From Agathobacter sp. (GTDB lineage Bacteria; Bacillota; Clostridia; Lachnospirales; Lachnospiraceae): a stretch of DNA of 64,000 nucleotides. Below, piece after piece: positions 565-34,841 of the stretch. The DNA is taken from positions 62,001 through 126,000 of the forward strand of contig JALEZW010000016.1 in the NCBI GenBank assembly GCA_022772675.1. Direction: 5' to 3'. The notes under the pieces are model-generated. The model saw only the letters and a program-made list of their open reading frames with translations. It did no database searches and was not told the DNA's origin. Numbering within the stretch: the stretch's first letter is position 1; each line of letters starts with the position of its first letter. The translations under genes and the position numbers were made by a program.

Positions 565-589
565 GGCACCTAATATTGGCACCTAATAT
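565..589. repeat. 12-bp tandem duplication at the gltS stop codon
   Basis: GGCACCTAATAT occurs twice (565-576 and 578-589) with one base between. The copies cover the stop codon and last residues (DIRCQY) of the GltS-like gene and sit at the junction with the AAA ATPase remnant. They look like a small duplication or recombination scar. Confidence 0.7.
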
Positions 590-1913
590 CTTGTCGAAAG
601 ATTTTTTTGCAAACAACTAAACAGAATGATGCTACTGCTAATAAAACTATACTCCATAATAATCCATGGCCTTGTATAATCAGCATCGGCGATAGTGATA
701 CTAGCACGAGATCCACGAACGTCAAAAAAATCCATGCAAATCCAAAGTCCTCCAGCACTCCTGATTGAAATTCAGGATCAGTAATCCTCAACAAAATTAC
801 ACCAGTTGCCATCACGCCCGTTGAAAGACCATAAATATAAATACCTCTCTCAAACCAGAAGTTACGGAAAAATCTTGGAGATACTCCCCAAAACCAAATA
901 ATTACAAATAAGAAGCCAATCACTGACAACAGAATAATTGGTACAAGATATGCTATCACAATACTTATATTGATCGAAGCTACTCCGAAAGCAACCAAAT
1001 AGTCTGTCGCACTGCTACCAATGTGTGTAATTATTCTTTTATCAACGTATGCATCAAGTTTTAACAATTTTAAAATACTTTGCAAGATTACTCCACATAC
1101 TAACGCAATTCCATACACTGGAAATGAAATAGAAGGAACAAGTATCTTTAAGCCAGAATTAATTAAATACGCAGTCCCTACCGATACCATAACCAATACG
1201 AAATGCCATGAAAACGTATCCATCGACATTGCATTTACGGTATTCTTACCAAACTCTGTTTGATTATTTTCCTCAACAAGTCCAGTCATCATTTCATTGG
1301 GAAGTTCTTTAACATCCTTAATAATTGCGGTCTTTCCTTTTCTAGCACCAATATTAATTAAGATTACACCGCCGATAATACCACCCAGAAGTCCAATGGT
1401 AGCAAATGTTTGTGCCACACTAGTAGCAGCTGACCATCCATTTTCTTCTAACACTCCTCCAATTGCAGCAGCTGTTCCATGTCCACCAATAAAACCAGCA
1501 GGAACCATAAGACCAAAAGCTTTATCAATATTATTAAAAATAAGCGGTATTATTGTTACACCAAGTAAAATAAAGAAAGCATATTGTCCAATTTCTGCGG
1601 CAGCATTTACCAAAAACGTATCACCAACATTATTAAACATTGATTTAAAAGTAACCCTTCTCTTATTCCCAATAAACATCGAACTGAAAACCACGGCTAT
1701 CAAGATACCCGAATAACTTGATATTTGATTGCTAAAAGGCAACAAATTCAAAAACTGTGGTCCGAGAAACAATCCCAGAAATCCAGCTATCAAAGCAGCA
1801 GGAATATACAATTTCTGAATTATTTTTACTTTTGTTCTAATCACTTTACCAACAAAAAGTAAAGCAGACATGATTGCTACATCGTACAATAAGCTTGTCG
1901 CATTATAATCCAC
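570..1913 (-). CDS. gltS: GltS-family sodium/glutamate symporter
   Basis: The 447-residue protein is highly hydrophobic with about a dozen predicted membrane segments and matches the Na+/glutamate symporter (GltS) family in length and layout. A glycine-rich segment, GLMVPAGFIGGHGTAAAIGG, near residue 140 is the family's transport signature, and a related repeat lies in the second half. It would import glutamate with sodium at the cytoplasmic membrane. It begins 3 bases after the ATP-grasp gene and is the last gene of the glycan operon. That position is unusual for a nutrient transporter and suggests supply of an amino acid, or export of a related metabolite, for the ligase next door. The extreme C-terminus was altered by a 12-bp duplication. 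Confidence 0.85.
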   Translation of the reverse strand: MDYNATSLLYDVAIMSALLFVGKVIRTKVKIIQKLYIPAALIAGFLGLFLGPQFLNLLPFSNQISSYSGILIAVVFSSMFIGNKRRVTFKSMFNNVGDTFLVNAAAEIGQYAFFILLGVTIIPLIFNNIDKAFGLMVPAGFIGGHGTAAAIGGVLEENGWSAATSVAQTFATIGLLGGIIGGVILINIGARKGKTAIIKDVKELPNEMMTGLVEENNQTEFGKNTVNAMSMDTFSWHFVLVMVSVGTAYLINSGLKILVPSISFPVYGIALVCGVILQSILKLLKLDAYVDKRIITHIGSSATDYLVAFGVASINISIVIAYLVPIILLSVIGFLFVIIWFWGVSPRFFRNFWFERGIYIYGLSTGVMATGVILLRITDPEFQSGVLEDFGFAWIFLTFVDLVLVSLSPMLIIQGHGLLWSIVLLAVASFCLVVCKKIFRQDIRCQY

Positions 1914-1916
1914 TCA

Positions 1917-2897
1917 TTAATCCTCCTCAATTTTAGTAATGTATTCTTCATACTTTCTGGCCATATACATATTATGTTTAAATTCAAAATCATCAATAGA
2001 CAGGTGATTAAAAGCTCTCATGTGATTTCCAACACAATCATAACCAGCCATACAAGAAAATTCGCATCCTGCAGAAAATCTTGGGTTACACTCAACCAAA
2101 TAATATGTCCCATCCTTGCAACGAAGGAATTCAAAATTCACGCATCCAATAACCCCGAGAACATCCGCCATTTTCTTGCACGCTTCTTCAAGAAGCTTAT
2201 CTTGATAAATGTATACCGTCAAACCACAATTGTTGGAAGTTCGAAGAAGGCTTCCCAATCTTGTAATTGCGACAACATTATGGGGTTCTGATTGACGAAC
2301 AATCTCAACCATAACACATTCGCCCTCAATATATGGCTGCACAATATATTTTTTCTGATCTGCGGTTTGCTTGAATTGTTCCCATTCTTCATTAGTATAT
2401 ATAAATCTAAGACCTTGACTACTGCGACCATCATATGGTTTACAAACCAACGGGAACTTCCAAGGAATATCTTCAAGAACAGAGGATAACATTCGAGTTG
2501 GAATGGTGTTAATATCAGGACAATTAATGTCTATATAATCGGCAAGTTTCTTCTTGTTCCTAATAATATCTAAAGAGTTTTGGGGAGAAATACATAAACA
2601 TATTCCATTTTCTATAAACCAATCCCTGTTATTATTAAAAAAATCAACATCAATATCTGTTAGTGGCAAAATGTAATTTATTCTTTCATTCAAACATATT
2701 TCTTTTATGAATGATAAAAAAGATTGGGTATTGACTGATAGAGGTGCTCTATAAAAAGCATCAACATTATTCGCATCAACAACCCATTCCTTGGGGTAAA
2801 TATCGCAACCTACTACCCGGTAATTGTGCTGTTTAAGGCTTTTAATCACAATATCTCCAGCCACCGAACCTATAGAAGTAACTAATGCTGTTTTCAT
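1917..2897 (-). CDS. ATP-grasp ligase (carbamoyl-phosphate-synthase-like / PylC-like)
   Basis: The 326-residue protein has an N-terminal pre-ATP-grasp Rossmann-like fold (ALVTSIGSVAGDIVIKSL). An ATP-grasp domain follows: PLVCKPYDGRSSQGLRF near 150 binds ATP, YIVQPYIEGECVMVE near 190 forms the lid, and VECNPRFSAG at 268 carries the metal-binding Glu and Asn. Such enzymes join a carboxylate to an amine through an acyl-phosphate. The likely role, inferred from the DegT aminotransferase before it and GltS after it, is to attach an amino acid to an amino sugar. The substrate cannot be read from sequence. An AGAGGAAGG ribosome site supports the start. Confidence 0.75.
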   Translation of the reverse strand: MKTALVTSIGSVAGDIVIKSLKQHNYRVVGCDIYPKEWVVDANNVDAFYRAPLSVNTQSFLSFIKEICLNERINYILPLTDIDVDFFNNNRDWFIENGICLCISPQNSLDIIRNKKKLADYIDINCPDINTIPTRMLSSVLEDIPWKFPLVCKPYDGRSSQGLRFIYTNEEWEQFKQTADQKKYIVQPYIEGECVMVEIVRQSEPHNVVAITRLGSLLRTSNNCGLTVYIYQDKLLEEACKKMADVLGVIGCVNFEFLRCKDGTYYLVECNPRFSAGCEFSCMAGYDCVGNHMRAFNHLSIDDFEFKHNMYMARKYEEYITKIEED

Positions 2898-3086
2898 TTT
2901 TATCCTTCCTCTTAATGAATTGTGTTACAATATAAATGAATATCATAATCGATCATTACTCAAATCCATCTCTGTTAAGACAACATCTGTACTTTCACAT
3001 ATATAAATGCATGATATGGATTGATACTATATTAATTAAATTTCGTGTCCACATCTGTCGATTTTTGAGTTCTGTCTCCATATCAA

Positions 3087-4193
3087 TCACTTCAATATAA
3101 TGTCACAAATTTTATCTACGTCTTCCAAGCTCATATCAGCATAAAGAGGAAGTGTAAGTACCCTCAATGCTGTATGCTGAGCAATCGGAGTCTTTTCAGT
3201 TCCCGCTGTTGGGTAGTTCCGATAACATTCAAAGCTATTTGTAAGAGGATAGAAATACTTTCTTGCCCCAATTCCTACTTCTGCTAATTTTTCAAAGACT
3301 TCATTCCGGGTGTATTTATAGCTGTCGAATACAACTGGGAAGTATGCGTAGTTACTTTCTACTCCTTCTTGTATTTTAGTCAATTTAATTCCTTCCACAC
3401 CTTCAAGTCTCTCTCTATATCTCTCAACAACTTTCTTTCTCTTCGTAATTTCCTCATCCAGGTGTCGAAGGTTGCAAAGACCCATAGCAGCCTGGAACTC
3501 ATTCATCTTGGCATTGCCACCTATGTAATCCACTTCCTCGGGCCCATGGATTCCAAAATTCTTCATGTCATTTAAAAGCTGTACCCATGAATCATTGTGA
3601 AAACATACTGCGCCACCTTCAATCGTGTTAAAAACCTTGGTCGCATGAAAACTGTACATGGTAGCGTCCCCAAAGACAGCCAATGACTTTCCTTTATATT
3701 TCACAGCAAAGGCATGCGCTGCATCATAAATAACCTTAAGACCATATTTTTTTGAAATCCGGCTAATCTCTTCCACATCGCACATATTTCCATAGACATG
3801 AACCGGAACGATAGCGACGGTCCGGTCCGTAATCAATGATTCTATTCTCGACACATCTATCGTGTAATCCCTGTCGTTAATATCACAGAATACCGGAACC
3901 AGCCCATTTCTAACAATTGCATGGGTTGTAGACGCAAAGGTAAATGGAGATGTGATAACTTCTCCTCCCTTTGGAAGGTTAAGCGCATTAATTGCATTTT
4001 CCAGCGCAAGGTGACCATTTGTGTAGAGTGCCACATGTGGCACTCCAAGATACTCTTCCAGTATTTTTTGAAATTTCTGATGTTTCACTCCCATATTTGT
4101 AAGCCAATGAGTATCCCAGAGATCACGGATTTCTTCCATATACTCATCCAAATCCGGCAATGATGAACGTGTCACCAAAATATTCTGTTCCAT
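3087..4193 (-). CDS. DegT/DnrJ/EryC1/StrS-family sugar aminotransferase
   Basis: PLP-dependent aminotransferase of about 368 residues that would convert a nucleotide-linked keto-sugar to an amino sugar, usually with glutamate as donor. The PLP-binding DAAHAF lies near 157 and the Schiff-base lysine is in SFHATKVFN (K186). I start it at the internal ATG (MEQNILVT), 7 residues inside the longest frame, because AAGGAG lies 7 bases before it. This is the second aminotransferase in the glycan operon and is distinct from the PglE-like one. It lies between the flippase and the ATP-grasp gene, so a modified amino sugar is likely. Confidence 0.85.
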   Translation of the reverse strand: MEQNILVTRSSLPDLDEYMEEIRDLWDTHWLTNMGVKHQKFQKILEEYLGVPHVALYTNGHLALENAINALNLPKGGEVITSPFTFASTTHAIVRNGLVPVFCDINDRDYTIDVSRIESLITDRTVAIVPVHVYGNMCDVEEISRISKKYGLKVIYDAAHAFAVKYKGKSLAVFGDATMYSFHATKVFNTIEGGAVCFHNDSWVQLLNDMKNFGIHGPEEVDYIGGNAKMNEFQAAMGLCNLRHLDEEITKRKKVVERYRERLEGVEGIKLTKIQEGVESNYAYFPVVFDSYKYTRNEVFEKLAEVGIGARKYFYPLTNSFECYRNYPTAGTEKTPIAQHTALRVLTLPLYADMSLEDVDKICDIILK

Positions 4194-4286
4194 GGCAATC
4201 TCCTTTCCTGCCATATTTTTCTTACAAATCTATCTGCAAGATCACAATACAATTTAAATGCTTCTGATTTCAAGCCATTACTTTTC

Positions 4287-5738
4287 TCATTTTACACGCT
4301 TCAAAACTTGATTCATAACAGATTGAACGACATCTTTTAGATATTCAAAGGATTCCAATTTTAATACTATAGAACCCCCAATATAAATAGCTGCTCCTGT
4401 CATAACCTGAATTGCCAATTTTACAATTAGTGACAACGGAATTTTTCCTATTAGCAGAACAATTATACCCATAAACACGGCAAGTCCTACCGCAGGAAAA
4501 ATATCCTTCATCTGTTCCCAAAAACTGTAGTCCAACAGTTTCCAATTTGGCCATGAATTGATAATCATACTGATCACAGTACTGACCAGCAGACTGTATG
4601 CCATTGCTTTTACCCCAAACCACATAGTAGTCAATAAAAGTGTCATCCCTACTGCTTTTTTCATGATTTCCAATTTTAAAAATAAATCACTTCGCCCCAT
4701 CGCATTGATTGCATTCAAATTCGCGGTATGTATCGGCCAGAACATATAGGTAATACAGAAAATCTGTAGATACGTTACACACGGCAACCACTTATCCGTT
4801 AGAACAAGACGTACAACAGTTTCCGCACAAAATGCCAGTCCCATCATTAACGGAGCCATGATATAGGTGCTTATTTTAATGGCTTTACGTGTTATTATTT
4901 TGATCTGTTCATGAGAATCCTGCAATTTAGACATCGTTGGCAGCAAAACACTATCTATAGAACTATTAATATTTGACACAATAGCCAAAGGGAATTTATC
5001 ACCCTGATTATAAAATGCTAAATCAGATGAAGAATACATTTTTCCAATGATCAAGTTCCGTAAATTATTATATATAGTCCCAAGCAGCGTTGATACTAAC
5101 AATTTCCATCCAAATGAGAGCAATCCCTTCAATCGTCTCCATGAAAATAATTTTTGGGGACGCCATTTAACTGTAATCCATAAAATCAAGGTATCAACCG
5201 CAGTATTAGAGAGTTGTTGAACAACTAGTGCCCATACCCCACCTCCCATACATGCTATCCATATTCCAAGACCAGCAGACATGAGCGTTCCACCAATGGT
5301 AGAAAAGAAAAAACGTTTAAATAACATATTTCTCGAAACATAAGCCTGCTGTATTCCTTTGACCCCTGAAATCACAATTGTCAAACTCATTACTCTCACA
5401 ACAGATGTCAATGCTGGATCATTATAAAACACAGCGATAAAAGGTGCTGCCAGAAACATTCCCGCATACAATACTACGCAGACAAAAAAATTGAAATAAA
5501 AAACAGAAGAAAAATCCAAATCATCTGCATCTTTTTTTTGTATCAAAGCTGTTCCTAATCCACTATCTACAAAAACCTGCAGAATCGTAGTAAAAACCGT
5601 TATCAATGAAATTGTTCCATAATCCTCTGGTGCAAGAATACGCGCAAGAATAATAGAAACAATAAATGTAACAATCTGTGCACCACAGCGTTCAGCAAAA
5701 CGCCAAAAAAAATTCTTTACAATATTTAAATTACTCAT
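4287..5738 (-). CDS. Polysaccharide flippase (Wzx-like, MOP superfamily)
   Basis: A 483-residue membrane protein with about 12 to 14 helices. The N-terminal region (NFFWRFAERCGAQIVTFIVS, then LAPEDYGTISL) is typical of polysaccharide-transport flippases of the Wzx/TuaB type. It would move the undecaprenyl-pyrophosphate-linked oligosaccharide across the membrane. It lies downstream of the glycosyltransferases, as in Wzx/Wzy-type loci. A Wzx-dependent pathway is compatible both with polymer formation and with transfer of the glycan to protein. Confidence 0.88.
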   Translation of the reverse strand: MSNLNIVKNFFWRFAERCGAQIVTFIVSIILARILAPEDYGTISLITVFTTILQVFVDSGLGTALIQKKDADDLDFSSVFYFNFFVCVVLYAGMFLAAPFIAVFYNDPALTSVVRVMSLTIVISGVKGIQQAYVSRNMLFKRFFFSTIGGTLMSAGLGIWIACMGGGVWALVVQQLSNTAVDTLILWITVKWRPQKLFSWRRLKGLLSFGWKLLVSTLLGTIYNNLRNLIIGKMYSSSDLAFYNQGDKFPLAIVSNINSSIDSVLLPTMSKLQDSHEQIKIITRKAIKISTYIMAPLMMGLAFCAETVVRLVLTDKWLPCVTYLQIFCITYMFWPIHTANLNAINAMGRSDLFLKLEIMKKAVGMTLLLTTMWFGVKAMAYSLLVSTVISMIINSWPNWKLLDYSFWEQMKDIFPAVGLAVFMGIIVLLIGKIPLSLIVKLAIQVMTGAAIYIGGSIVLKLESFEYLKDVVQSVMNQVLKRVK

Positions 5739-5749
5739 TACTCTATACG

Positions 5750-6697
5750 CTATTGTTCTCCAAAATACTTTTTACAATAATTTACAAATTCTTCTGCGGA
5801 CTGTTTCCCTTCTTGATTTATCATAACATATCTTTCTCTTGCCTTATTTGCAGTTCTTCTTGCCCACTCAATCTCGTCGTTATCAAAACTGTAGGCAACA
5901 CCATATTTTTCCTCAATTGAGTCGCAATAGTCTTCCCAAGTCTTTCCCACTTCTGGTATCACTACAGAGATACATCCACAAATAGCTGCAATGCTGGAAT
6001 ATGCAGTCTGAGTATCATAAGAAATACAATATTCACACTGGTTAAAAATCTCCACCTTTTCTTTCTCTGGCAAATCATCAACTACAATTCCATCTAATTT
6101 TTCAGGTAAATCTAATCGCTTAGCTCCTTTTCGAACTACATAACATTTTCCACTTCTTTTTCCATAATTTTTCTGTCTATACAAATCCAAATTAAAATAT
6201 GGTGTATATAGTTTACGCTTCATTGGATTCAACTTCATATCATTAAAAACATCTCTATATGTAAAAAAAAGATCATCCTTCCCATATGCACTTTCATCAT
6301 AACGATTATAATATAGCAACCACCGCACAACTTTTCTTGCATGTAAGAAATTCCCATATATCATATCCGGATAAACAACAATTGTATTTTTGTCAGCTAT
6401 TGGAATTTCTTTCTTTTTACATTTCTTAACGCAAACATTAACATATCCATTAAAACTGATTTTTTTTGAAAAGAAATTGTCACCCAGGATATTGACACAA
6501 AGTTCTTTTAATCTGTCTTTTATTGTAAATCCAATCTGTTTAAACCAAAAATATAATTTTCTCCCTTTTTTATAACATGTTTGTCCCACATAATATATTG
6601 ACGCATCATATCCAAGTTGTGTCAAATAATTGCAAAGCGTATGTAAAACAATAGCTCCTCCGCACCCTGGTCTCAAAGAAACAATCACAAACTTCAT
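5750..6697 (-). CDS. Probable glycosyltransferase of unassigned family
   Basis: A 315-residue soluble protein opening with VIVSLRPGCGGAIVLHTLCN, which resembles the nucleotide-sugar or acceptor loop of GT-B transferases. The C-terminal half has SYDTQTAYSSIAAICGCISV followed by a conserved VVIPEVGK, resembling WavQ-like polysaccharide proteins. Its start overlaps the preceding gene's stop by 4 bases (ATGA), showing tight coupling. AT-rich coding compared with the rest of the window is typical of transferred surface-glycan genes. The enzymatic role is inferred from context and weak resemblance. Confidence 0.55.
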   Translation of the reverse strand: MKFVIVSLRPGCGGAIVLHTLCNYLTQLGYDASIYYVGQTCYKKGRKLYFWFKQIGFTIKDRLKELCVNILGDNFFSKKISFNGYVNVCVKKCKKKEIPIADKNTIVVYPDMIYGNFLHARKVVRWLLYYNRYDESAYGKDDLFFTYRDVFNDMKLNPMKRKLYTPYFNLDLYRQKNYGKRSGKCYVVRKGAKRLDLPEKLDGIVVDDLPEKEKVEIFNQCEYCISYDTQTAYSSIAAICGCISVVIPEVGKTWEDYCDSIEEKYGVAYSFDNDEIEWARRTANKARERYVMINQEGKQSAEEFVNYCKKYFGEQ

Positions 6698-7668
6698 ATC
6701 TCTTCCCCAATTCTATTTCCCGTTATATCTAATCCGAATCTTTCCAACCATGCTTTAAACGCATAATGCTGATAAACTGCTTCCTCCAATTGTTTAATAG
6801 GTTTATTTAAAAATTCAGGCAAGTTATTTATATCATCTTTTCCTACGATGAAAACATTATCTGGATGATACAAAGGTTCATTAACCAATTCTTCATTATT
6901 TGAAATTAATTTCTTGTGAAAGTACAGTGCTTCTAATGGTCGTAAAGTCATCCATTTATTGTCTGGTTCCACGATATCTAAAATTGCTCTGGACTTTTTT
7001 ACTATTTCATAATACTCATTCTCAGCAATTGCCGACTTTAATTCAAATGGCCTGTTTTTCCCTCTAGAATGATACAATACTTTAATATATGTACTTAATC
7101 CTTTCTTTTCACATATACTATAAAAATCAGATAATATTTGCACCCGATTATAATATATCTTTCCGACACTACCTACAAACATAATATCATAAAGCATTTT
7201 ATCTGGTTCCATTATGTTTTCATATATTTTTGAATCAACTGGTAAAAAAGTCGGATTATATTTCAAATTAAAATTTAAAGAATCATTCTTACTAAAGGAC
7301 CATTTTTCACATACCTCACTTTTAACCTTATCAGGTAATATCGTTTTAATTGCTGGATCCCACCAGTATATTATTCTCCGAACAGCTGGGTATCTTTTTC
7401 TTAAAATCTGAAATAATCTATATGTAGATTTATATGCAATAGCAATAACTGCCTCATATTGCTCTATTTCCTTCCACCACTCTCCAAACCATATTTGAAA
7501 TCCCGGTAAATTGAAATTACACCAAATTTTTCGTATCATTCTTATCAAAATATTATGATACGGATAATATATGGCTTCTGTTACTACTCCATCAACACTA
7601 TTCATTCCACTTTTACTAAGTTTGTTTTCTCTTTCTCCGATAGCCATCAAAATAAGTACTTTTTTCAT
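6694..7668 (-). CDS. Probable glycosyltransferase (CgeB-like / GT-B)
   Basis: A 324-residue protein. The middle reads YDIMFVGSVGKIYYNRVQIL and is followed by a C-terminal LRPLEALYFHKKLISNN. This pattern resembles the donor-binding half of GT-B glycosyltransferases of the CgeB/DUF3880 kind, where a glutamate in the RPLEAL motif contacts the nucleotide sugar. It sits among glycosyltransferase genes and overlaps the next gene by 4 bases. Sugar and acceptor are unknown. It is AT-rich. Confidence 0.6.
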   Translation of the reverse strand: MKKVLILMAIGERENKLSKSGMNSVDGVVTEAIYYPYHNILIRMIRKIWCNFNLPGFQIWFGEWWKEIEQYEAVIAIAYKSTYRLFQILRKRYPAVRRIIYWWDPAIKTILPDKVKSEVCEKWSFSKNDSLNFNLKYNPTFLPVDSKIYENIMEPDKMLYDIMFVGSVGKIYYNRVQILSDFYSICEKKGLSTYIKVLYHSRGKNRPFELKSAIAENEYYEIVKKSRAILDIVEPDNKWMTLRPLEALYFHKKLISNNEELVNEPLYHPDNVFIVGKDDINNLPEFLNKPIKQLEEAVYQHYAFKAWLERFGLDITGNRIGEEI

Positions 7669-7696
7669 TTCTCACCCAGTTAAACAATATATTTAA

Positions 7697-8587
7697 TTAC
7701 ACATATCTTATTTTCCAAAAAAAATATAATAAAACCCCAAAAATATAATTACAGGAAATCAAGATTTTTGCATTGCTTCTATCAATAATCTCCCAATATG
7801 CAAGACCTGCAAATTTTCCATAGCATACAAAAAGCCAGGCTCTCTTTATTCTTTCTCTCAGTGGAAAGTGCTTATCAAAACTGACTTTAGAATTATCCAT
7901 GCCTCCAAGTGGACAGGAAATTCTCAGTTTCCTCCCCTGCTTTGTCAATCCTCCTTCAAGATACTCACAAAGATAAATAATCCTATTACAATACATCATA
8001 GAATATTTTAAATAAATCTGACGCCAAATATAATCCTCTCCTATAAACTTTTCCCCGGAATAAACTGGAAATCTAAATTGCTTTAATATATCGCTCCTAA
8101 AGACCTCCGCCTTATCACCACTGATATTATGAGAAAACATTGCATCGATCATATCATAAGTTCCATCCTCCAACTCCGAATATCCGATACATGTTCCATC
8201 CTCATGTCCTTTTAAAAACACGCATCCTGCAACCTCTTTATCGTCACGTTTTTTCCATGTCTCTTCTATGATTTCGGTAGCATCCGGAATTAATGTGTCA
8301 TCACTATCTACTATAAGTGCAAGCTCTGTCTCTAAATTTGAAAATGCTACATTTAATGCAGTATGTTTTCCCCCATTATCTTTTTGATAAAATCGAATCT
8401 CAAAATCACTTTCTCCTATAATTTGATCCATTTCTTTCTTTATCTCATCCGTGCTTCCATCATCTATGACCATCCAAATGAAATTTTTATTTTTTTGTTT
8501 TATCAAACTATCAAACAATTTATTTATTAGCGATGCCCTATTATATACTGGAGTTATGATAGTCAACAATTTTTGCATATTCTTCAA
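7697..8587 (-). CDS. Family 2 glycosyltransferase
   Basis: A 296-residue GT-A protein. The N-terminus LLTIITPVYNRASLINKLFD, the motif IDDGSTD near 42 and the metal-binding LIVDSDDT near 92 identify the family. It would transfer a sugar from a nucleotide donor to the growing lipid-linked oligosaccharide at the inner face of the membrane. The C-terminal stretch is hydrophobic (YIFGVLLYFFWKI), suggesting membrane association. It follows the GT4 gene by 18 bases within the operon. Confidence 0.88.
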   Translation of the reverse strand: MKNMQKLLTIITPVYNRASLINKLFDSLIKQKNKNFIWMVIDDGSTDEIKKEMDQIIGESDFEIRFYQKDNGGKHTALNVAFSNLETELALIVDSDDTLIPDATEIIEETWKKRDDKEVAGCVFLKGHEDGTCIGYSELEDGTYDMIDAMFSHNISGDKAEVFRSDILKQFRFPVYSGEKFIGEDYIWRQIYLKYSMMYCNRIIYLCEYLEGGLTKQGRKLRISCPLGGMDNSKVSFDKHFPLRERIKRAWLFVCYGKFAGLAYWEIIDRSNAKILISCNYIFGVLLYFFWKIRYV

Positions 8588-8605
8588 ACAACCTCAATTC
8601 TTAAA

Positions 8606-9685: not shown

Positions 9686-9744
9686 TATATCTTCCTATCA
9701 ATGCCATCTTTAAATCTCTCTATTTCTGTTCAAAAAGTTCTCTA

Positions 9745-10875: not shown

Positions 10876-10876
10876 T

Positions 10877-11482: not shown

Positions 11483-11541
11483 CCTGTTTTCCCACCCCCT
11501 GCATCATTACAAACCAATTTTATTTGTCTGTTTAAGCAGAA

Positions 11542-12171: not shown

Positions 12172-12248
12172 TTTTTCTCCCCTCTTCCATTCCTATCACC
12201 CACAGAAATCATCCTCTCATCATTCTCCGCTCAATCTTTATAACAACA

Positions 12249-15421: not shown

Positions 15422-15494
15422 TTCAATGTCTATCCTTCGATTTTCCTGTCCTGTTACTTTCCAGTTACTTACAAAATAACCTTAAAGTTATCCT

Positions 15495-17291: not shown

Positions 17292-17319
17292 AACCTAAAT
17301 CCTCCTTCTCTCTTTTTCT

Positions 17320-17348
17320 ATTATATCACTAAACTATTCCATTTCCAA
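17320..17348 (-). promoter_or_regulatory. Sigma-A promoter of the glycan operon
   Basis: TTGGAA and TATAAT on the minus strand are separated by 17 bases, giving a leader of about 20 bases before the TTG start at 17291. It lies after the pilus operon terminator, so the glycan operon has its own promoter. Confidence 0.75.
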
Positions 17349-21825: not shown

Positions 21826-21883
21826 TACCGCTCTCTCCCTTCACGATATGACCAGCATGTTTTTCTATTAACAAAATTCTGGA

Positions 21884-22492: not shown

Positions 22493-22535
22493 ACAATCAC
22501 TCTCCTTTCTGTCTCTGCTTGCTTTATCCCTTAAA

Positions 22536-23048: not shown

Positions 23049-23059
23049 TGGCTCACCCC

Positions 23060-25375: not shown

Positions 25376-25378
25376 AGT

Positions 25379-26530: not shown

Positions 26531-26607
26531 AATCCATCCTTTCCATGCAGTTCCTGCATTCATCCATCCTGATAAAACACATCTGTTCCCTGTTTTAATT
26601 CATGAGG

Positions 26608-27390: not shown

Positions 27391-29179
27391 CTGCCTCGCC
27401 CTCTCCTTCCGCTGTCTGATCAGCATCCACATTATCTGTGTTATTCTCCATACCTTCTGTCTCTAAGGAGTCTCCCGGAAGCTGCATATTAAGAAGATCC
27501 TCCGGTGGAAGCTCACTGTAAACAGCATTTACAGAATAGTTCCACTGGGTATTGCCCGCATCATCCTCGTCCTCCTGCATGGCAGGAATGGAAACATTAG
27601 TAAGTAATGTTACATCCTGAAAATTAAGAAGCATCTGACCAGCGGTAATCTTTGTATCAGAAACCATATTTAAGGTAACAGAGTCATTATTAGCCTGCAT
27701 ACTTTCTACATGAATCTCACTGGGGAGATTTTCCTCCAGCTGGGTAATCAGCGGAAGAAGCTGCTCGTTCTTTGTCCGGGTCTGGTTATGCAGTCCCTCA
27801 TAGACCCCTTCTTCCTGTTGAATCAAAGCCTGTTCATCGTAGGTGTCTTGCACATAGGAAAGATCCTGAATCCGCTTCTGCAACTTATTATGCTGGGTAA
27901 TCGCAACCAGATGACGAATACTGGAGCCAAGAATCAGTCCCAGGCTCACAAGAGTTGCACCTGCCAGTATGATATATGACGTTCTCAGACTGTTCTTCTT
28001 GCTGGCTGCCTCCACCAGATCCTTGGGCTTCGCATCAATGGGATGCACCGCCGCACCAATGACGGAAAGGAATCCCACCGGCGTAGCTGCTCTCGGCTTG
28101 TTATTTACAGATGCCGCTCCTTCCTGGGAGGAAACGGTTTCACTGTCCTCTACCTTTGGCGTTTCTCTCTTTAAATCGATCAGTACCGCAAAATCAATCT
28201 CCTGCAGTGGGAGTGGCATCTCCTGTGAAAACAGCTTGTGAATGCCGGAAAAACGGGAGCCCTCTCCTACAAGATAAAGATTTCCGGTAAACTCCTCTTT
28301 CTTCTGATTCTGGTAATATTCAATTGCCGTATGGGCAATCCGCAGATGGTAACGGAGGGATTCTGCCAGATCATCATAGGCTTCATCTGCAAGCTTCTGT
28401 CTCCTCTCCCGCTCTGTTTCATCTGCCATCGACTGGATGGACGGGCGGTTGTAAACCACGTTGTGACTTAACATGAAATCAAAGGCTGCATATTCATCCT
28501 TCACACCAAGAATCGGATGCTCTACCACACTGGTCAGAGTCTGACCATATCCATAGGGAGTCACACGCTGGAATACCAGCCGCTTGTTTTCCAGAATACT
28601 GATAATGGTGGACTGTTCCTCCAGCTGTACCACCACTGCGTTCTGCACAAAGCTGTCGCACATGAGCTGAACAGTACCATTTCCCAGATAGTCAAAGGTC
28701 TCAACATGTAAACCTGCCAGTGTGGCAAAGGTAACATAATTGTTCAGCAGGTTGTCGGGAATGGCTACCAGAAGAAGCTTTAACTGCTTCTTTCCATCCT
28801 CCTCAAAGACATCCATCTTACTGTAGCTGATGGTATAGTTACTCACATCCATGGGGAAATAATCACGGATCTGCGCATCCACGATTCCCCGAATCTTGTT
28901 ATCCTTTACAAAGGGAATGACCACCTCACGGGTAACTACCTTAGAGGAAGACAGGGTAAATACCACATCCTTTTCCCGGATGCTGCGCCTTGCCAGCTCA
29001 GTCTTTAAGGCAGAGGCCAGACTGTCCTTATCCCGGATATAACCATCCTCCACCGCATGCTCCGGTGTAGGAAATGCAAATGCCTGATAGACAGGCGGAT
29101 TTTTCTTTCGGTATTCTACGAGAGCGACCTTGGTCCACCAGACCCCCGCCTCGATACTAATTACTTTTTTTGATGTCAT
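27383..29179 (-). CDS. PilM-PilN fusion protein of the pilus inner-membrane platform
   Basis: A 598-residue protein. Residues 1 to about 340 form an actin-like PilM domain: VISIEAGVWWTKVALVEYR at the N-terminus, VEDGYIRD, REVVIPFVKDNKI, and LYLVGEGSRFSGIH as the second phosphate loop. A linker of about 45 residues leads to a membrane helix near 390-410 (YIILAGATLVSLGLILGSS). A coiled-coil and a PilN-like domain (LPSEIHVESMQANNDSVTLN) follow. In Proteobacteria PilM is cytoplasmic and binds the N-terminal tail of PilN; here the two are one polypeptide. AAGGAG before the ATG supports the start. Confidence 0.87.
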   Translation of the reverse strand: MTSKKVISIEAGVWWTKVALVEYRKKNPPVYQAFAFPTPEHAVEDGYIRDKDSLASALKTELARRSIREKDVVFTLSSSKVVTREVVIPFVKDNKIRGIVDAQIRDYFPMDVSNYTISYSKMDVFEEDGKKQLKLLLVAIPDNLLNNYVTFATLAGLHVETFDYLGNGTVQLMCDSFVQNAVVVQLEEQSTIISILENKRLVFQRVTPYGYGQTLTSVVEHPILGVKDEYAAFDFMLSHNVVYNRPSIQSMADETERERRQKLADEAYDDLAESLRYHLRIAHTAIEYYQNQKKEEFTGNLYLVGEGSRFSGIHKLFSQEMPLPLQEIDFAVLIDLKRETPKVEDSETVSSQEGAASVNNKPRAATPVGFLSVIGAAVHPIDAKPKDLVEAASKKNSLRTSYIILAGATLVSLGLILGSSIRHLVAITQHNKLQKRIQDLSYVQDTYDEQALIQQEEGVYEGLHNQTRTKNEQLLPLITQLEENLPSEIHVESMQANNDSVTLNMVSDTKITAGQMLLNFQDVTLLTNVSIPAMQEDEDDAGNTQWNYSVNAVYSELPPEDLLNMQLPGDSLETEGMENNTDNVDADQTAEGEGEADE

Positions 29180-29200
29180 GTTTCTTCTCCTTAAATTTCT

Positions 29201-29263
29201 AAATGGTACCCCTATTCCAAAAGAACACCCGGTTCCCCTCGAATAGAGATACCCTATCCATTT
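29201..29263 (-). other. Inverted repeat between pilMN and the prepilin peptidase gene
   Basis: AAATGG plus TACCCCTATTC (29201-29217) pairs with the reverse-complementary arm at 29241-29263, allowing a bulge and G-U pairs. It forms a hairpin within the pilus transcript just upstream of the pilMN ribosome site, with no T-run, so it is more likely an mRNA processing or stability element than a terminator. Confidence 0.45.
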
Positions 29264-29295
29264 GCCGCCATTTACAGCAGCATTTTCATTTTAAA

Positions 29296-30057
29296 CTATG
29301 AAATCATCAGTGACATATACCAGTTCCAGAAATGACTGCCCCAGAGAGCCGCAATAAAGATTCCAAGAGACAGATACGGTCCCATGGCAAGCAGATTATT
29401 CTTTTTGCTGACCTTCATGCGGATCAAGTGAATCACAGACCCCAGAACACATGCCAGCACAAATGCCAGAATAATATTTTTCCATCCAAGGATCAGCCCT
29501 GCCACTGCCATCAGTTTGATATCCCCTCCTCCGATTGCCTGTCCGGAGGAAAAATAGTACAGTGCGTACAATAACAGGCTGACACATACCATCCCAATCA
29601 GATGGGACAGGATGTGCCGCCAGTCATAGACTGTCATTACGATACCGATGAGCCCTAGAAACAGGTTGAAGGTCACCGGTATCTTCATGGTTCTCTCATC
29701 TACCACTGTAATGACAATGAGTGCCGACGTCATGAGGCAATAGAGAACGCTGCTGAAGGTAAAACCGTTCGCCATGAAAACGATCACATACAGCATGCCA
29801 TTCAGAGCCTCAATTAATGGGTACTGTATGGATATCTTTGCCCCACAATATCGGCATCTGCCTTTTAAAAACAGATAAGAAAAAATCGGAAACATATCAT
29901 GCCAGTGCAGCTTATGCCCACAGCTCATACAATGAGAATGGGTTACAATATTCTCCCTGTTGGGAATACGGTAGATGCAGACATTTAAGAAGCTGCCAAT
30001 GACGATTCCGTAGAGGAAGACGATTGTGTATAGTAAAATGGTAAGTGACACTAGCAT
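29296..30057 (-). CDS. pilD: Prepilin peptidase (type 4 leader peptidase, A24A)
   Basis: A 253-residue membrane protein with about 7 helices. The zinc-binding cytoplasmic loop has two CxxC pairs (CMSCGHKLHW and RCRYCGAKI). The two catalytic aspartates are in VVDERTMKIP and GGGDIKLMA. It cleaves the leader from the five pilins encoded in the operon and N-methylates the new N-terminus. The length and both CxxC pairs match bifunctional PilD enzymes. Confidence 0.93.
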   Translation of the reverse strand: MLVSLTILLYTIVFLYGIVIGSFLNVCIYRIPNRENIVTHSHCMSCGHKLHWHDMFPIFSYLFLKGRCRYCGAKISIQYPLIEALNGMLYVIVFMANGFTFSSVLYCLMTSALIVITVVDERTMKIPVTFNLFLGLIGIVMTVYDWRHILSHLIGMVCVSLLLYALYYFSSGQAIGGGDIKLMAVAGLILGWKNIILAFVLACVLGSVIHLIRMKVSKKNNLLAMGPYLSLGIFIAALWGSHFWNWYMSLMIS

Positions 30058-30083
30058 TTATGTATTACTCCTTTAGATTTTAA

Positions 30084-30584
30084 TTACATATCAGATACAG
30101 CAGCATCCAGCATAGGATTATTAGATGTATCAAAAGCTTGTGCTGAAACTACTTTCTTAGTAAAGTCATAGTGTACTTTAATAGTTTTAAATTTATCTCC
30201 TTTTTTAGACTTAAATTTGTTCTTTGCTTCTGCAGATGTACTATATGTTAATTCTCTAATTGCATTAACTAAAACAGCCGTATCACCCGTTGAATTTTCA
30301 TCAATACTACTATCATAAACATCAAAATCAATAGTAGTTCCTGTTGTTGTTAGTTTTGCAACATTTGAAGAATATGCTGTTACAGCAGCTGTTGAATAAC
30401 TACTAACCACTTGATAATCTTTTGCTTCTTTTGACTTATTGATATAAGGAATAACCTGTGTACCAACAATACCAACAAGAATTGCCATAATTGCGATAAC
30501 GATAATCAACTCAACAAGAGAGAAACCATTGTTATCTTTTTTTAATTCGTCTCTTTTTTTCTGTAATTTGCTCATAAATTTCAT
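30084..30584 (-). CDS. pilA: Major type IV pilin (PilA-like)
   Basis: A 166-residue prepilin with a 19-residue basic leader. Cleavage is at DNNG^FSLVELIIVIAIMAIL with Glu at +5. The mature pilin of about 147 residues is Ser/Thr/Lys-rich and lacks the C-terminal disulfide pair of proteobacterial pilins. Its codons are more AT-rich and more biased than those of its neighbours, consistent with high expression. AAGGAG lies 9 bases before the ATG, and the 73-base gap before it is the widest in this part of the operon. Candidate glycosylation sites such as TTTGTT are present, but this is only suggestive. Confidence 0.9.
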   Translation of the reverse strand: MKFMSKLQKKRDELKKDNNGFSLVELIIVIAIMAILVGIVGTQVIPYINKSKEAKDYQVVSSYSTAAVTAYSSNVAKLTTTGTTIDFDVYDSSIDENSTGDTAVLVNAIRELTYSTSAEAKNKFKSKKGDKFKTIKVHYDFTKKVVSAQAFDTSNNPMLDAAVSDM

Positions 30585-30657
30585 ACCCTTTTTCTCCTTT
30601 TCCTTTTCTTAATTTTTTAATTTATCATCATATGCCCCATGGCAGGCACATAACAAT

Positions 30658-31869
30658 CTACGCTCCAATATTGTTGTACAGCGTGTACATCGGCATCATA
30701 ATTGCCAGCACAATCGGTACAACCACACATGCCATAATAATGATAATAAGCGGTTCCATCGCAGCCAGAAGTGACTGGGTCTCCATTTCTACCTCATCCT
30801 CATAATACTCTGATACTTTGTCCAGCATATCCTCCATATTACCGGTTTCCTCACCAATTTCTATCATGTGGTAAACCATAGGTGGAAATACTCCACTGTC
30901 TGCCAGCGGTTTCGATAAGGAGATGCCCCTCGTAACCTCTTCCTGTGCCTCTTCCAGTGCATGCTTTACGATTGCATTGCTCATCATTTCAGCTACCAGC
31001 CGGATGGCATCCACCAGCTGAATACCGGATGCCAGTAACGTGGCTAAGGTTCTGGTCATTCGTGCACAGGCTGTTTTGATATTTAATTTTCCAAACAAAG
31101 GAGCCTTCAGACCTAATTTTCCAAAAAGTTCTGCCCCAACGGAAGTTTTCTTAAACTCTTTTAAAAAGAGAACAACAGCCACCAGTACAATCAGCATAAT
31201 ATACCAGCTGTTTACAAAAAAATCACTGACTGCCATTACAGCCAATGTAATACCCGGAAGCTGTCCACCCACCTCATCAAATGATTCGGTAAAGGTCGGT
31301 ACAATCTTAATCATCATGATTGCCACAACAACAATGATTACAAGAATCAATATACATGGATAAATTGCAGACTTTACAATCAGTCCTTTCAGATGCGCAT
31401 CTTTCTCAAAGGAAGTGCCCATACGATTTAACGCTTTATCCAGTCCACCGGAAGTCTCTCCTGCCGCAATCATCTGAATCATGAGAGGTGGAAAAATCTT
31501 AGGATGCTCTGACATTGCCGCAGCAAGCGTCTCACCTTTCTGCACAGCGTCCCTTACATCCTCAAGTGCCGACTTAAAGCTCTTGTTTTCCGTCTGTTCT
31601 GCCAGCATGGAAAGAGCCTCAATCACGGTAACACCGGCATTCAATACACTCTCGAACTGGCGGCAGAATACGCTCAATTCCCGAACGCTTACCGCTTTTC
31701 CAATATGGATATCGATATCCTTATTCAGTGCATTGGCTTTACTGATGGAAACAATAACACTTCCTCCAGCCTTTAACTCTCCGGAGGCTGCCTCTATATT
31801 GATTGCGTCAATCTGCCCGGACTGGGGTTTTCCGTCCGGTCCGATAATCTCATACTTATAACTAGGCAT
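30658..31869 (-). CDS. pilC: PilC/GspF pilus platform protein
   Basis: A 403-residue membrane protein with two T2SSF domains (about 65-190 and 270-395). Each has the family helix pattern, for example FPPLMIQMIAAGETSGGLD and its counterpart FPPMVYHMIEIGEETGNME. Three membrane segments are visible at about 170-190, 220-240 and 370-395. It couples the motor ATPases PilB and PilT to pilin addition and removal. AAAGGA lies 8 bases before the ATG. Confidence 0.93.
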   Translation of the reverse strand: MPSYKYEIIGPDGKPQSGQIDAINIEAASGELKAGGSVIVSISKANALNKDIDIHIGKAVSVRELSVFCRQFESVLNAGVTVIEALSMLAEQTENKSFKSALEDVRDAVQKGETLAAAMSEHPKIFPPLMIQMIAAGETSGGLDKALNRMGTSFEKDAHLKGLIVKSAIYPCILILVIIVVVAIMMIKIVPTFTESFDEVGGQLPGITLAVMAVSDFFVNSWYIMLIVLVAVVLFLKEFKKTSVGAELFGKLGLKAPLFGKLNIKTACARMTRTLATLLASGIQLVDAIRLVAEMMSNAIVKHALEEAQEEVTRGISLSKPLADSGVFPPMVYHMIEIGEETGNMEDMLDKVSEYYEDEVEMETQSLLAAMEPLIIIIMACVVVPIVLAIMMPMYTLYNNIGA

Positions 31870-31889
31870 TTATGTAATCCTTTCTGGGC

Positions 31890-32951
31890 TTAATATAGCT
31901 TCTGCTGCATACTCTCGGTATCCTGGGCAAACTCCACGCAGTTGGCTCCGTCAATCTTATGCTTCAGATAAAGGTTAAACAGTGAGTCGTCCATGGTCTG
32001 CATGCCCAGCTTCTTACTTGTCTGCATAATAGATGGTATCTGATGAGCCTTATCCTCTCGGATCAGGTTCTTGATGGCCGGTGTGCCTAACATAACCTCA
32101 AAGGCTGCCACCCGTCCTTTCCCGTCAATGGTGGGAAGAAGCTGCTGGGATATAACCGCTTCCAGTACGGAAGCCAGCTGGCTTCTGATCTGGTTCTGCT
32201 GGTGGGCCGGGAATACATCCACAATACGTTCAATAGTCGGTGCCGCACCAATGGTATGCAGTGTGGAGAACACTAAGTGTCCGGTCTCTGCTGCAGTAAT
32301 GGCAGTGGATATGGTATCGAAGTCACGCATCTCTCCTACCAGTATGATATCCGGATCCTCACGGAGTGCTGCACGTAGTGCATTTCCATAGGAATCGGTA
32401 TCCAGTCCGATTTCCCTCTGATTGACAATGGCGTGATTATGCTTATGTAAATACTCGATTGGATCCTCAAGAGTAATGATATGTTCATTTCGCTCTTTAT
32501 TGATGACATCAATCAGGGATGCCAGCGTGGTAGATTTACCACTTCCGGTGGGTCCTGTTACCAGTACCAGGCCACGTTTCTTCTTGGTCAGTCCAATAAC
32601 CGCCTCCGGCACTCCCAGGCTTTCCGGTGTGGGAATCTTGGAGCCTACGATTCGAAGAACTGCCGCATAGGAGCCTCTCTGTTTAAATGCATTGACACGG
32701 AACCGGCCAAGATCCGGATGGGCATAGGCGAAATCCACTTCTCCTTTCTCATCCATAGTTGCCTGCTGCTTAGGTTGAAACAGGGACTCTACCAGTTCCT
32801 TTGTCTTTGCTGGTGTCAGCACTTCAAAGGCTGCCATCTCATATAAGGTACCGCTGATACGGCACTTGGGTTTAATTCCTACTGTAATATGTATATCAGA
32901 TGCATTGTTTGCCTTTGCAGTGGCAAGCAGATTGTACATATTTGTTTCCAT
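31890..32951 (-). CDS. pilT: PilT retraction ATPase
   Basis: A 353-residue secretion-superfamily ATPase. Walker A is GPTGSGKSTT near 130, the Asp box is ITLEDPIEYLH, Walker B is DPDIILVGEMRD, and the His box is STLHTIGAAPTIERI. The C-terminal AIKNLIREDKAHQI is the PilT-specific AIRNLIRE signature, which is missing in PilB. It depolymerises pili, so this pilus should retract and may support twitching or DNA uptake. It lies between pilB and pilC. Confidence 0.95.
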   Translation of the reverse strand: METNMYNLLATAKANNASDIHITVGIKPKCRISGTLYEMAAFEVLTPAKTKELVESLFQPKQQATMDEKGEVDFAYAHPDLGRFRVNAFKQRGSYAAVLRIVGSKIPTPESLGVPEAVIGLTKKKRGLVLVTGPTGSGKSTTLASLIDVINKERNEHIITLEDPIEYLHKHNHAIVNQREIGLDTDSYGNALRAALREDPDIILVGEMRDFDTISTAITAAETGHLVFSTLHTIGAAPTIERIVDVFPAHQQNQIRSQLASVLEAVISQQLLPTIDGKGRVAAFEVMLGTPAIKNLIREDKAHQIPSIMQTSKKLGMQTMDDSLFNLYLKHKIDGANCVEFAQDTESMQQKLY

Positions 32952-33018
32952 TTTCTATTTCCCCCATCTGTATTTCCTTCTTAAGAATCATCCTTATGAT
33001 CCATTTCTGCACTGCAGA

Positions 33019-34755
33019 CTACAATTCATCATCATCCTCGAATGCAACACGTCTGACTTCCTCAACGGTTGTAATTCCTTTCAGTGCATATTCCACTGCA
33101 CCCATGCGGAGGGTTTTCATTCCCTGCCTTAATGCAATGGCCTCAAGCTCATCTGCATTATCTCCACGGTTAATGGCCTGGCGCAGTTCTGCATTGATGG
33201 GCATAATCTCATAGACACCGATTCGTCCATAGTATCCGGTTCCTCCGCATCGGACACATTCTTTATGTCCGGGATGCTTAATCATCACCCTGCGGGTCGG
33301 GTCCGTAATACCTAAGGTCTTCTTTTCTCTCTCATCTGCTTCTTTTAAAGTTCCGCAAACCGGGCAGACCCTGCGCACCAGTCGCTGTGCAATCACCCCC
33401 ACTACGGAATCGGAAATCAGATAGTTTTCCACTCCCATATCCGCAAGACGGGTAATGGTATTGGCAGAACTGTTTGTATGTAAAGTACTGACAACCAGAT
33501 GTCCTGTAATAGATGCCTTAACGGCGATCTCTGCGGTCTCCTGGTCTCGAATCTCACCAATCATGATGATATCCGGATCCTGTCGCAAAATAGAACGAAG
33601 GGCACTGCTGAATGTCAGTCCTGCTTTCTCATTTACCTGTACCTGGTTGACTCCGTTTAAGTTAGCCTCAACCGGGTCTTCTACTGTAATAATATTAACT
33701 CCCTCCACATTCAACTCGCTAAGAGCGGTATATAATGTGGTGGATTTTCCACTTCCGGTAGGTCCTGTTACCAGGATCAGGCCGTTGGGATGGCTTAATA
33801 TACGATTAAATTTGTCTAATTCTTCATCCGGGAATCCCAGATCACGTTTATCCATGGTAAGGGCTTTCTTCTGGGCAATTCGCATAACGACCTTTTCTCC
33901 GTAGACTGTAGGCAGAATGGAAACACGGATATCGTACTCCTGTCTGTCTACAATGCTGGTAGCTCGTCCGTCCTGTGGGCGTCGTTTTTCAGAAATATCA
34001 AGGCCGCTGACAATCTTGATTCTCGCAATCAGTGCTGCATGAAGGCCGATATCATGCCGCATCACCTCATGTAATACGCCATCCACACGGAAACGGATGC
34101 GCACCTGATTTTCCAACGGTTCGATATGGATATCACTGGCACGCTGGTGGACAGCCTGCTCCACAATCTGTCCTAAAAGTCTGACAATCGGTGCCTCAGC
34201 GACATTCGATTCGTCATTCTTCTCAGCTTCCCGTGCTTTTTCCTGTTCTTCGCGTTCTTTTGTGTACTGTTCCGCCACCCGGAGTGCTTCGGCATTACCA
34301 TAATAGCGGTCAATGGTTGCTGCAATATTGCTGGGTGTCGCAACATACCGTTCAATCTGGAGACCTGTGATAATGGAAACATCATCCATTGCACGGATAT
34401 CCAGTGGATCGCTCATTGCCACTTTAATCAGATTCGGATTTTTCTCGCTAAATTGAAATGGAATCAAGCTGTATTTTCTCAATATAGATTCCTGCAACAG
34501 CTTAATAACTTCCTCCGGTATTCTTACCGTGGATAAATCAATGCCCGGCAGTTTTAACTGCTCGCACATTGCCTTCATAATCTGCTTCTCATCTGTGTAG
34601 CCCAAATCAATCAGCAGTTCTCCGAGACGCATATCTCTCTTTTCAGTTTTCTGAATGCCCAAGGCCTTTACAAGTTGATCCTGGCTGATCACCCCGGCAT
34701 CTACCAGTAAATCACCCAGTCGTTTCTTCCGGCCAAACCCGATTGGCTTATCCAT
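33019..34755 (-). CDS. pilB: PilB/GspE extension ATPase
   Basis: A 578-residue hexameric ATPase. The N-terminal GSPII_E domain begins KKRLGDLLVDAGVISQDQLV. Walker A is GPTGSGKSTT near 334, Walker B is DPDIIMIGEIRD, and the His box is STLHTNSSANTITRL. A zinc-binding tetracysteine appears as CPVCG and CVRCG. It powers pilus polymerisation. It is the first gene of the operon, about 50 bases after a consensus promoter. Confidence 0.95.
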   Translation of the reverse strand: MDKPIGFGRKKRLGDLLVDAGVISQDQLVKALGIQKTEKRDMRLGELLIDLGYTDEKQIMKAMCEQLKLPGIDLSTVRIPEEVIKLLQESILRKYSLIPFQFSEKNPNLIKVAMSDPLDIRAMDDVSIITGLQIERYVATPSNIAATIDRYYGNAEALRVAEQYTKEREEQEKAREAEKNDESNVAEAPIVRLLGQIVEQAVHQRASDIHIEPLENQVRIRFRVDGVLHEVMRHDIGLHAALIARIKIVSGLDISEKRRPQDGRATSIVDRQEYDIRVSILPTVYGEKVVMRIAQKKALTMDKRDLGFPDEELDKFNRILSHPNGLILVTGPTGSGKSTTLYTALSELNVEGVNIITVEDPVEANLNGVNQVQVNEKAGLTFSSALRSILRQDPDIIMIGEIRDQETAEIAVKASITGHLVVSTLHTNSSANTITRLADMGVENYLISDSVVGVIAQRLVRRVCPVCGTLKEADEREKKTLGITDPTRRVMIKHPGHKECVRCGGTGYYGRIGVYEIMPINAELRQAINRGDNADELEAIALRQGMKTLRMGAVEYALKGITTVEEVRRVAFEDDDEL

Positions 34756-34812
34756 CTTACAATAACACCCCAGTATTTGTAGCTATACTACATTTTGTAT
34801 TATCTAATTTGT

Positions 34813-34841
34813 ATTATACTATTTTCATTCTGGATTGGCAA
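34813..34841 (-). promoter_or_regulatory. Sigma-A promoter of the type IV pilus operon
   Basis: TTGCCA and TATAAT on the minus strand, with 17 bases between, about 50 bases before the pilB start. The 339-base divergent gap (34756-35094) holds this promoter and the candidate forespore promoter of spoIVB. I see nothing else in it. Confidence 0.75.

Follow-up and report, generated by a model that had tools for sequence, protein, structure and literature searches.

The stretch of DNA from the gut bacterium Agathobacter sp. analysed here (64,000 nucleotides; assembly GCA_022772675.1, contig JALEZW010000016.1, positions 62,001 to 126,000; hereafter the window) carries on its minus strand a Gram-positive type IV pilus operon (17494-34755), which is followed by a bacillosamine-type glycan operon whose first gene encodes a 598-residue Wzy_C protein, WzyC598. 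Our comparison with relatives suggests that WzyC598 is probably a protein O-oligosaccharyltransferase with an S-layer-like protein as its main acceptor, and that the glycan locus is an inserted, exchangeable cassette. An earlier note on this DNA had proposed a pilin O-glycosylation system. The glycan operon is indeed best read as a protein O-glycosylation system, but the evidence for pilin as its acceptor is not the strongest, since the adjacency to the pilus genes is found in the window genome only, WzyC598 occurs independently of PilT, and it tracks the S-layer-like protein instead.

How could such a system work? PglF, PglE, PglD and PglC would produce a UDP-diacetamido (bacillosamine-type) sugar and attach it to undecaprenyl phosphate, the glycosyltransferases would lengthen the undecaprenyl-linked glycan, and the flippase would turn it to the outer face, where WzyC598 would move it en bloc to Ser/Thr of Ser/Thr-rich exported proteins. 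The main acceptor of these O-linked glycans would be an abundant immunoglobulin (Ig)-domain S-layer-like protein, whose gene lies downstream of purL on a different contig, while pilin, being on the same cell surface, would be an extra acceptor at most. Our comparisons establish the gene content, the lack of a conserved adjacency to the pilus, the site of insertion, the linkage of WzyC598 relatives to S-layer-like genes and the codon bias of the candidate acceptor; the reaction of the transferase, its acceptor and the precise sugar are inferred.

In a genus-level sample of 62 genomes, counted regardless of species kinship, a search with the S-layer-like copy that adjoins WzyC598 in genome G228 finds this protein in 10/10 genomes with a close WzyC598 ortholog (at least 40% identity, a line set after the data had been seen) compared with 3/52 others (p=3e-9), and in 11 of the 16 genomes with any homolog compared with 2/46 others. 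In a family-wide sample with one genome per genus, 8 of the 32 genomes with a WzyC598 homolog possess it, as against 5 of the 168 without (p=1.4e-4), and in G024, G099, G162 and G166 the two genes lie no more than 10 kb apart.

Genomic neighbourhoods were compared over a span of 8 kb in 36 fetched regions around WzyC598 homologs, 20 of them from 19 of the 31 non-own homolog-bearing genomes of the family and 16 from 14 of the 15 of the genus (G260, with a 3-kb contig, was left out of the count). Short contigs reduce the chance of detecting neighbours, and the control regions are contig starts for the most part, some of them short. S-layer-like open reading frames (ORFs) occur in 17/36 WzyC598 regions, the nearest at less than 1 kb in 9/36, compared with 4/40 random regions, 1/20 Bac_transf glycan loci, 0/18 pilus loci and 0/20 loci of Wzy_C proteins without the insert described below (open frames of 425-561 residues), although 17 of these last 20 come from other families, where the S-layer-like profile may not reach. 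A profile built from purL-linked S-layer-like proteins only matches in 15/36 WzyC598 regions as against 5/60 random and Bac_transf regions, and the window genome's own protein, used as query without iteration, in 8/36 as against 1/40 random and 0/18 pilus regions. Composition alone, taken as a supporting criterion only, picks out 11/36 WzyC598, 0/40 random, 0/20 insert-less, 5/20 Bac_transf and 2/18 pilus regions, three of the five Bac_transf matches looking by eye like lipoproteins and both pilus matches being minor pilins. The Big_2 domain was dropped as a linkage marker, as it has matches in at least 30 of 31 genomes, often dozens. Finally, purL, the S-layer gene, a cassette and WzyC598 stand in a single row in G228 (L064), and purL, the S-layer gene, cassettes, PglF and WzyC598 share a contig in G229 (L062, L117).

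The candidate acceptor of the window genome (contig G000:C35, L113:8112-10511) lies downstream of purL, a position that it shares with its counterparts in the fetched loci, 10 in all from 10 genomes of the genus (L113, L114, L115, L117, L118, L119, L121, L122, L124, L126; purL assigned by eye). It belongs to a family of secreted Ig-domain proteins of about 800 residues and shows a signal-peptide-like N-terminus (by eye), a Big_2 match of 38.5 bits and a composition of 16% Thr and 8% Ser, with Cys, His, Met and Trp together at ~1%. Its codon adaptation index (CAI) of 0.821 compares with 0.706-0.837 for 24 ribosomal-region genes, which are the reference set itself, and with 0.43-0.65 for 20 other genes of the window. 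Codon bias, composition, signal and Ig domains thus fit an abundant surface protein.

Any expectation that the pilus-glycan adjacency would be conserved in other genomes failed, as among the relatives compared it is seen in the window genome only. Searched with the window's pilus proteins, the 36 WzyC598 regions hold no pilus operon; a PilT-like ATPase lies 13 kb from the WzyC598 homolog in L070 (G232), and 12 kb from it in the syntenic G223 counterpart. PilT-like proteins, scored at E 1e-60 across the 62 genus genomes, are present in 9/10 with a close WzyC598 ortholog and in 40/52 without (p=0.67). Moreover, in 12/12 sampled genera having both a WzyC598 homolog and a relative of DUF5057, with which the pilus operon ends, the two are found on separate contigs, which in fragmented assemblies is no proof of distance, but with which the fetched flanks agree.

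At the end of the pilus operon, DUF5057 is followed by an ABC-transporter pair in three of the six relatives viewable there (G201, G235 and G229), with four ORFs of 135-317 residues in between in G201; G227, G210 and G243 have other content at this point. As the ABC pair at the window's left edge (L073) is 74-88% identical to the pair behind DUF5057 in these three genomes, ~17.4 kb (51-17434) was either gained here or lost in the others. This comparison of gene orders suggests that the glycan locus is an exchangeable cassette which entered behind the last pilus gene; no convincing direct repeats were found at its edges. The four G201 ORFs (L129:7381-11482), which by eye are similar to one another, occupy the same gap, so that insertions may be frequent at this site. 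The congener G237 keeps the order Wzy_C, PglF, PglE, PglC, PglD-like, GT4 elsewhere in its genome, where a comEC-like gene (Pfam Competence) and holA (by eye) lie upstream, with identities to the window of 78% for PglF, 80% for PglE, 87% for PglC and 67% for GT4, as against 48% for Wzy_C and 34% for PglD. Gene GC in the 3' part of the window's locus is 0.30-0.41, compared with ~0.40-0.48 in most surrounding sequence windows, as in variable surface-glycan loci; S-layer glycan clusters, in the available part of their description (PMC2943079), likewise have a low-GC variable part.

What does the enzyme itself reveal? WzyC598 is the sole PF04932 match in the window genome, and the domain is matched by 37/37 proteins of an alignment of WzyC598 and its 36 relatives at E 0.01. 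Invariant residues in this alignment include R451, W455, G469, G471, H501 and G512. Catalytic-motif residues are R288 and H338 in Escherichia coli WaaL and R298 and H349 in Neisseria PglL (PMC3643930, available part, here and below); R451 and H501 are 50 residues apart, compared with 51 in PglL and 50 in WaaL, an argument from spacing made without direct alignment to PglL. The glycines G469 and G471 fit the offsets of PglL G316 and G318, which WaaL is reported not to keep (PMC3643930), but they are given little weight, since the PDB alignment of WaaL 7tpg has G-x-G at the same place. Between R279 and R451, WzyC598 contains a beta-rich insert, the one fairly confident part of the AlphaFold2 model. 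Foldseek found no meaningful match (best E 0.16, the remainder including lipocalin/FABP-like and lectin hits). A profile search of PDB sequences gave weak matches only, to the oligosaccharyltransferase 9rmk (E 0.056) and to WaaL 7tpg (E 0.063), which do not separate ligase from polymerase, and a single-sequence search of WzyC598 against PDB sequences gave none. In an order-level sample of 196 genomes, 100 have matches to the WzyC598 profile, 67 of which run full-length across the insert, judging from the match list; in other Wzy_C proteins, shorter for the most part, the insert interrupts the match, and the two types occur together in several genomes.

The coexistence of the two types bears on the strongest alternative, namely that WzyC598 is a Wzy polymerase whose locus makes a free or wall-linked polysaccharide, the pilus adjacency being accidental. 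Wzy enzymes have the Wzy_C motif that is shared with WaaL and PglL. For the latter two, it is documented in PMC3643930. In the window, WzyC598 leads an operon that also encodes several glycosyltransferases and a flippase, as would suit a polymerase, and it is the only protein of the genome with a PF04932 match. In addition, a Wzz-like protein with two transmembrane segments, recognised by eye and hydropathy and unmatched by any Wzz model in Pfam, is encoded next to WzyC598 in G229 and G230 and next to PglF in G252 (L061:7400-8944; L062:7023-8567; L053:603-2180). However, relatives of WzyC598 are often found away from glycosyltransferase genes: a glycosyltransferase or flippase match occurs in 10/36 of their regions compared with 15/20 insert-less Wzy_C loci (p=9e-4), a contrast weakened by the origin of 17 of these 20 from other families. 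This speaks against proteins with the insert being ordinary polymerases, for which S-layer-like neighbours would also be unexpected. A polymerase function is unlikely in our view.

Less likely still is a general O-oligosaccharyltransferase that serves several exported proteins, with the S-layer-like protein and pilin treated alike. The neisserial PglL is broad in specificity (PMC3643930), and the relatives of WzyC598 adjoin varied secreted proteins, among them Ig-domain proteins, a GH10 enzyme and flagellin-like proteins; their strongest linkage, though, is to one protein family. An enzyme specific for pilin we consider highly improbable: the pilus operon is immediately adjacent in the window genome, and 21 of 31 Gram-negative PglL homologs are found beside or near pilin genes (PMC3643930), yet none of the 36 relatives' regions has a pilus operon, the presence of WzyC598 does not depend on PilT, and the glycan locus looks inserted.

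Besides the Wzz-like neighbours, several observations weigh against an oligosaccharyltransferase acting on the S-layer-like protein. WzyC598 and the S-layer-like gene are unlinked in the window genome itself; the genus counts are raw, without phylogenetic correction, and the search protein for them was taken from a genome that has WzyC598. That genome, G228, has two purL-linked S-layer-like loci at 4% contamination, the second of which, in L064, indicates that the assembly may be mixed. One of the random control regions (L157, G076) holds a strong S-layer-like gene, while the WzyC598 of G076 is elsewhere; the counted neighbours include the GH10 enzyme, with Ig-like parts (L087); and some WzyC598 homologs lie instead near flagellin-like genes (L065, L067, L068; by eye). 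The candidate acceptor has no SLH, CWB2 or other Pfam wall anchor up to E 1, so that 'S-layer' is a working name, and the pilin gene has a high CAI as well (0.709). As for the enzyme, the PglL_A motif (PF15864) is matched by 0/37 aligned proteins, and the AlphaFold2 model, computed from a 7-sequence alignment, is poor, with a mean predicted local distance difference test (pLDDT) score of 44.7.

The gene content and coordinates on both sides of the junction (Table 1) bear out the observation of the earlier note. The UDP-diacetamido-sugar pathway that it described is there, with PglF, PglE, PglD and PglC homologs together by Pfam and NCBIfam, although among the NCBIfam models of the bacillosamine pathway that of PglD alone exceeds its cut-off. 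The flippase is likewise clear, and of the five glycosyltransferases four are recognisable (two GT4, one GT2, one WaaS/CpsH-type), the fifth ORF (5750-6697) having no match in Pfam or NCBIfam. Beyond the flippase the operon extends to ~570, with a second DegT aminotransferase, an ATP-grasp protein and a membrane protein which, by eye, we take to resemble a glutamate symporter. A new promoter had been placed upstream of WzyC598, and a promoter-like TTGGAA-17-TATAAT does stand at 17348-17320, but sites of this kind occur no more often than in shuffled sequence (42 found, 45.2 expected). Similarly, the terminator claimed at 17434 is visible as a hairpin with a T-run but absent from the terminator scan list.

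The type IV pilus operon is as proposed, PilB, PilC, prepilins, prepilin peptidase, PilM and PilN all being matched; the family matches comprise two T2SSE ATPases, T2SSF, prepilin peptidase, PilM/PilN and four N-methylated prepilins, whereas the PilO-like protein and a 771-residue minor subunit are without a curated match in Pfam. Its gene order is conserved in relatives, where DUF5057 follows the minor pilins in nine of the ten loci reaching that point (L097, L101, L102, L103, L109, L112, L129, L130, L131; undetected in L108). The very large DUF5057 protein might act at the pilus tip or interact with the wall. Elsewhere, the window genome encodes another PilT-like ATPase, with 51% identity (G000:C2:17942-18973, L107).

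Table 1. Features of the glycan locus and the pilus operon in the window.
Feature	Coordinates	Strand	Support
Entire glycan locus, from DUF5057 to the ABC-transporter pair at the window's left edge	51..17434	.	
Membrane protein, last gene of the putative insertion	570..1913	-	no Pfam match
ATP-grasp ligase, perhaps acylating an amino sugar (putative role)	1917..2897	-	PF15632, PF02655
Second DegT aminotransferase (nucleotide amino-sugar)	3087..4214	-	PF01041 327 bits
Wzx-type flippase	4287..5738	-	PF13440 323 bits
ORF, possibly glycosyltransferase	5750..6697	-	position only
WaaS/CpsH-family glycosyltransferase	6694..7668	-	NF053598 163.6 bits, cut-off 60
GT2 glycosyltransferase	7697..8587	-	PF00535
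GT4 glycosyltransferase	8606..9685	-	PF00534
GT4 glycosyltransferase	9745..10902	-	PF00534, PF13477; 67% identical ortholog in G237 operon
PglD/NeuD-type acetyltransferase	10877..11482	-	PglD_N; NeuD/PglB/VioB model 220.6 bits, above cut-off 160.8
PglC-type phosphoglycosyl transferase (first sugar to undecaprenyl phosphate)	11542..12171	-	PF02397 202 bits
PglE/LegC-type aminotransferase	12249..13532	-	PF01041; LegC-family model 290.9 bits, below cut-off 420
PglF-type membrane-bound UDP-GlcNAc C4,C6 dehydratase	13529..15421	-	PF02719 397 bits and CoA_binding_3
WzyC598, Wzy_C (O-antigen ligase superfamily) membrane protein, 598 residues	15495..17291	-	PF04932 39.4 bits, cut-off 31.7
Beta-rich insert of WzyC598, residues about 322-432	15996..16328 (approximate)	-	block pLDDT 62-82 over residues 321-430
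Terminator-like hairpin and T-run after DUF5057	17429..17471	-	read off the sequence
DUF5057 protein, final gene of the pilus operon	17494..21825	-	PF16480 270 bits
Type IV pilus core operon, PilB to minor pilins	21884..34755	-	Pfam matches; gene order same in relatives
Minor subunits	21884-26563	-	N-methylation motif in three; 771-residue one without
PilO-like	26608-27432	-	named from size and place
PilM/PilN fusion	27383-29179	-	
Prepilin peptidase	29296-30057	-	
Prepilin	30084-30584	-	
PilC	30658-31869	-	
PilT	31890-32951	-	
PilB	33019-34755	-	

In several relatives the S-layer-like genes occur in inverted pairs. The expressed gene of G229 (L117:1616-6328) faces an open frame that has no signal peptide and, judged by eye, no start signals; the inverted arms match at 299 of 330 nucleotides, as compared with 49 of the 200 nucleotides upstream. 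G228 has a similar inverted arrangement (L064:5009-9750), and in G166 (L076:5779-15109) two full S-layer-like genes stand in inverted orientation around two tandem WzyC598 genes (L076:8374-12489). A member of the tyrosine recombinase family adjoins S-layer-like genes in L059:2962-6427, L076 and L123:1-3499, the L059 copy having a Pfam Phage_integrase match. Judged from the genes, these promoterless inverted cassettes suggest an inversion system for antigenic variation of the S-layer. Campylobacter fetus sap and Lactobacillus slp are invertible surface-protein systems, in which an expressed S-layer gene and an inverted promoterless second cassette likewise share a long homologous stretch; unlike these, the cassettes described here are linked to a candidate O-oligosaccharyltransferase, have a tyrosine recombinase in some genomes and are known from genes alone. 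It is possible, if doubtful, that Lachnospiraceae possess a combined surface-variation system, in which the C-terminal parts of the S-layer-like protein would be swapped by inversion of promoterless cassettes, and exchangeable glycan cassettes would decorate this protein by way of a distinct clade of O-oligosaccharyltransferases, whose beta-rich insert would recognise the acceptor, the window's cassette having landed beside a pilus operon. By eye, flagellin-like genes are found close to some more distantly related WzyC598 homologs (L065:3343-4848; L067; L068), so that in certain lineages the enzyme may act on flagellin.

Most of what is known about S-layer glycosylation comes from a small number of genera, among them Paenibacillus, Geobacillus and Tannerella. 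In the Lachnospiraceae, a major gut family, Clostridium symbiosum HB25 reportedly has an S-layer glycan with bacillosamine, which our literature search did not confirm. The listings returned by this search held no work evidently on S-layer glycosylation genes of the family, and nothing combining Lachnospiraceae, S-layer protein and O-antigen ligase; the terms Lachnospir and oligosaccharyl do not occur in the available part of a 2025 S-layer review (PMC12175726, term search). If true, our reading would provide a gene-level hypothesis for a variable glycoprotein coat, first met by hosts, phages and antibodies, and a Gram-positive oligosaccharyltransferase clade recognisable by an extra domain. 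It also cautions that function read from adjacency in one genome can mislead.

How does the window system relate to those already described? With Wzy polymerases of O-antigen and capsule it shares the Wzy_C domain and an operon with glycosyltransferases and a flippase, but the relatives of WzyC598 are often apart from glycosyltransferases and beside genes of secreted proteins, and the insert makes WzyC598 longer than the 20 Wzy_C proteins without it that were compared. PglL of Neisseria and its homologs have in common with it the superfamily, the Arg/His spacing, the diacetamido-sugar pathway and the flippase. Gram-negative PglL homologs commonly adjoin their target gene (PMC3643930), and the linkage of WzyC598 is to S-layer-like genes rather than pilins; it lacks the PglL_A motif, and its beta-rich insert may be an extra relative to PglL. 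Also close are WsfB of Paenibacillus alvei and WsaB of Geobacillus stearothermophilus, predicted Wzy_C S-layer O-oligosaccharyltransferases which, in the available part of PMC2943079, are likewise Gram-positive and combine a glycan locus with a low-GC variable part and an S-layer acceptor. Genomic linkage to an S-layer protein gene, a mark of this type, is found among WzyC598 relatives, the two genes being unlinked in the window genome. The Geobacillus model has a rhamnose-containing glycan and export by an ABC transporter, whereas the window locus has a flippase, and WsfB, in contrast to WsaB, has a C-terminal TPR motif, of which no match was found in WzyC598 and its aligned relatives. Their acceptors are the S-layer proteins SpaA and SgsE, as against an Ig-domain protein as the proposed acceptor here. 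Compared with these predicted enzymes, the window system thus has a different acceptor family and an extra domain, and belongs to another bacterial family.

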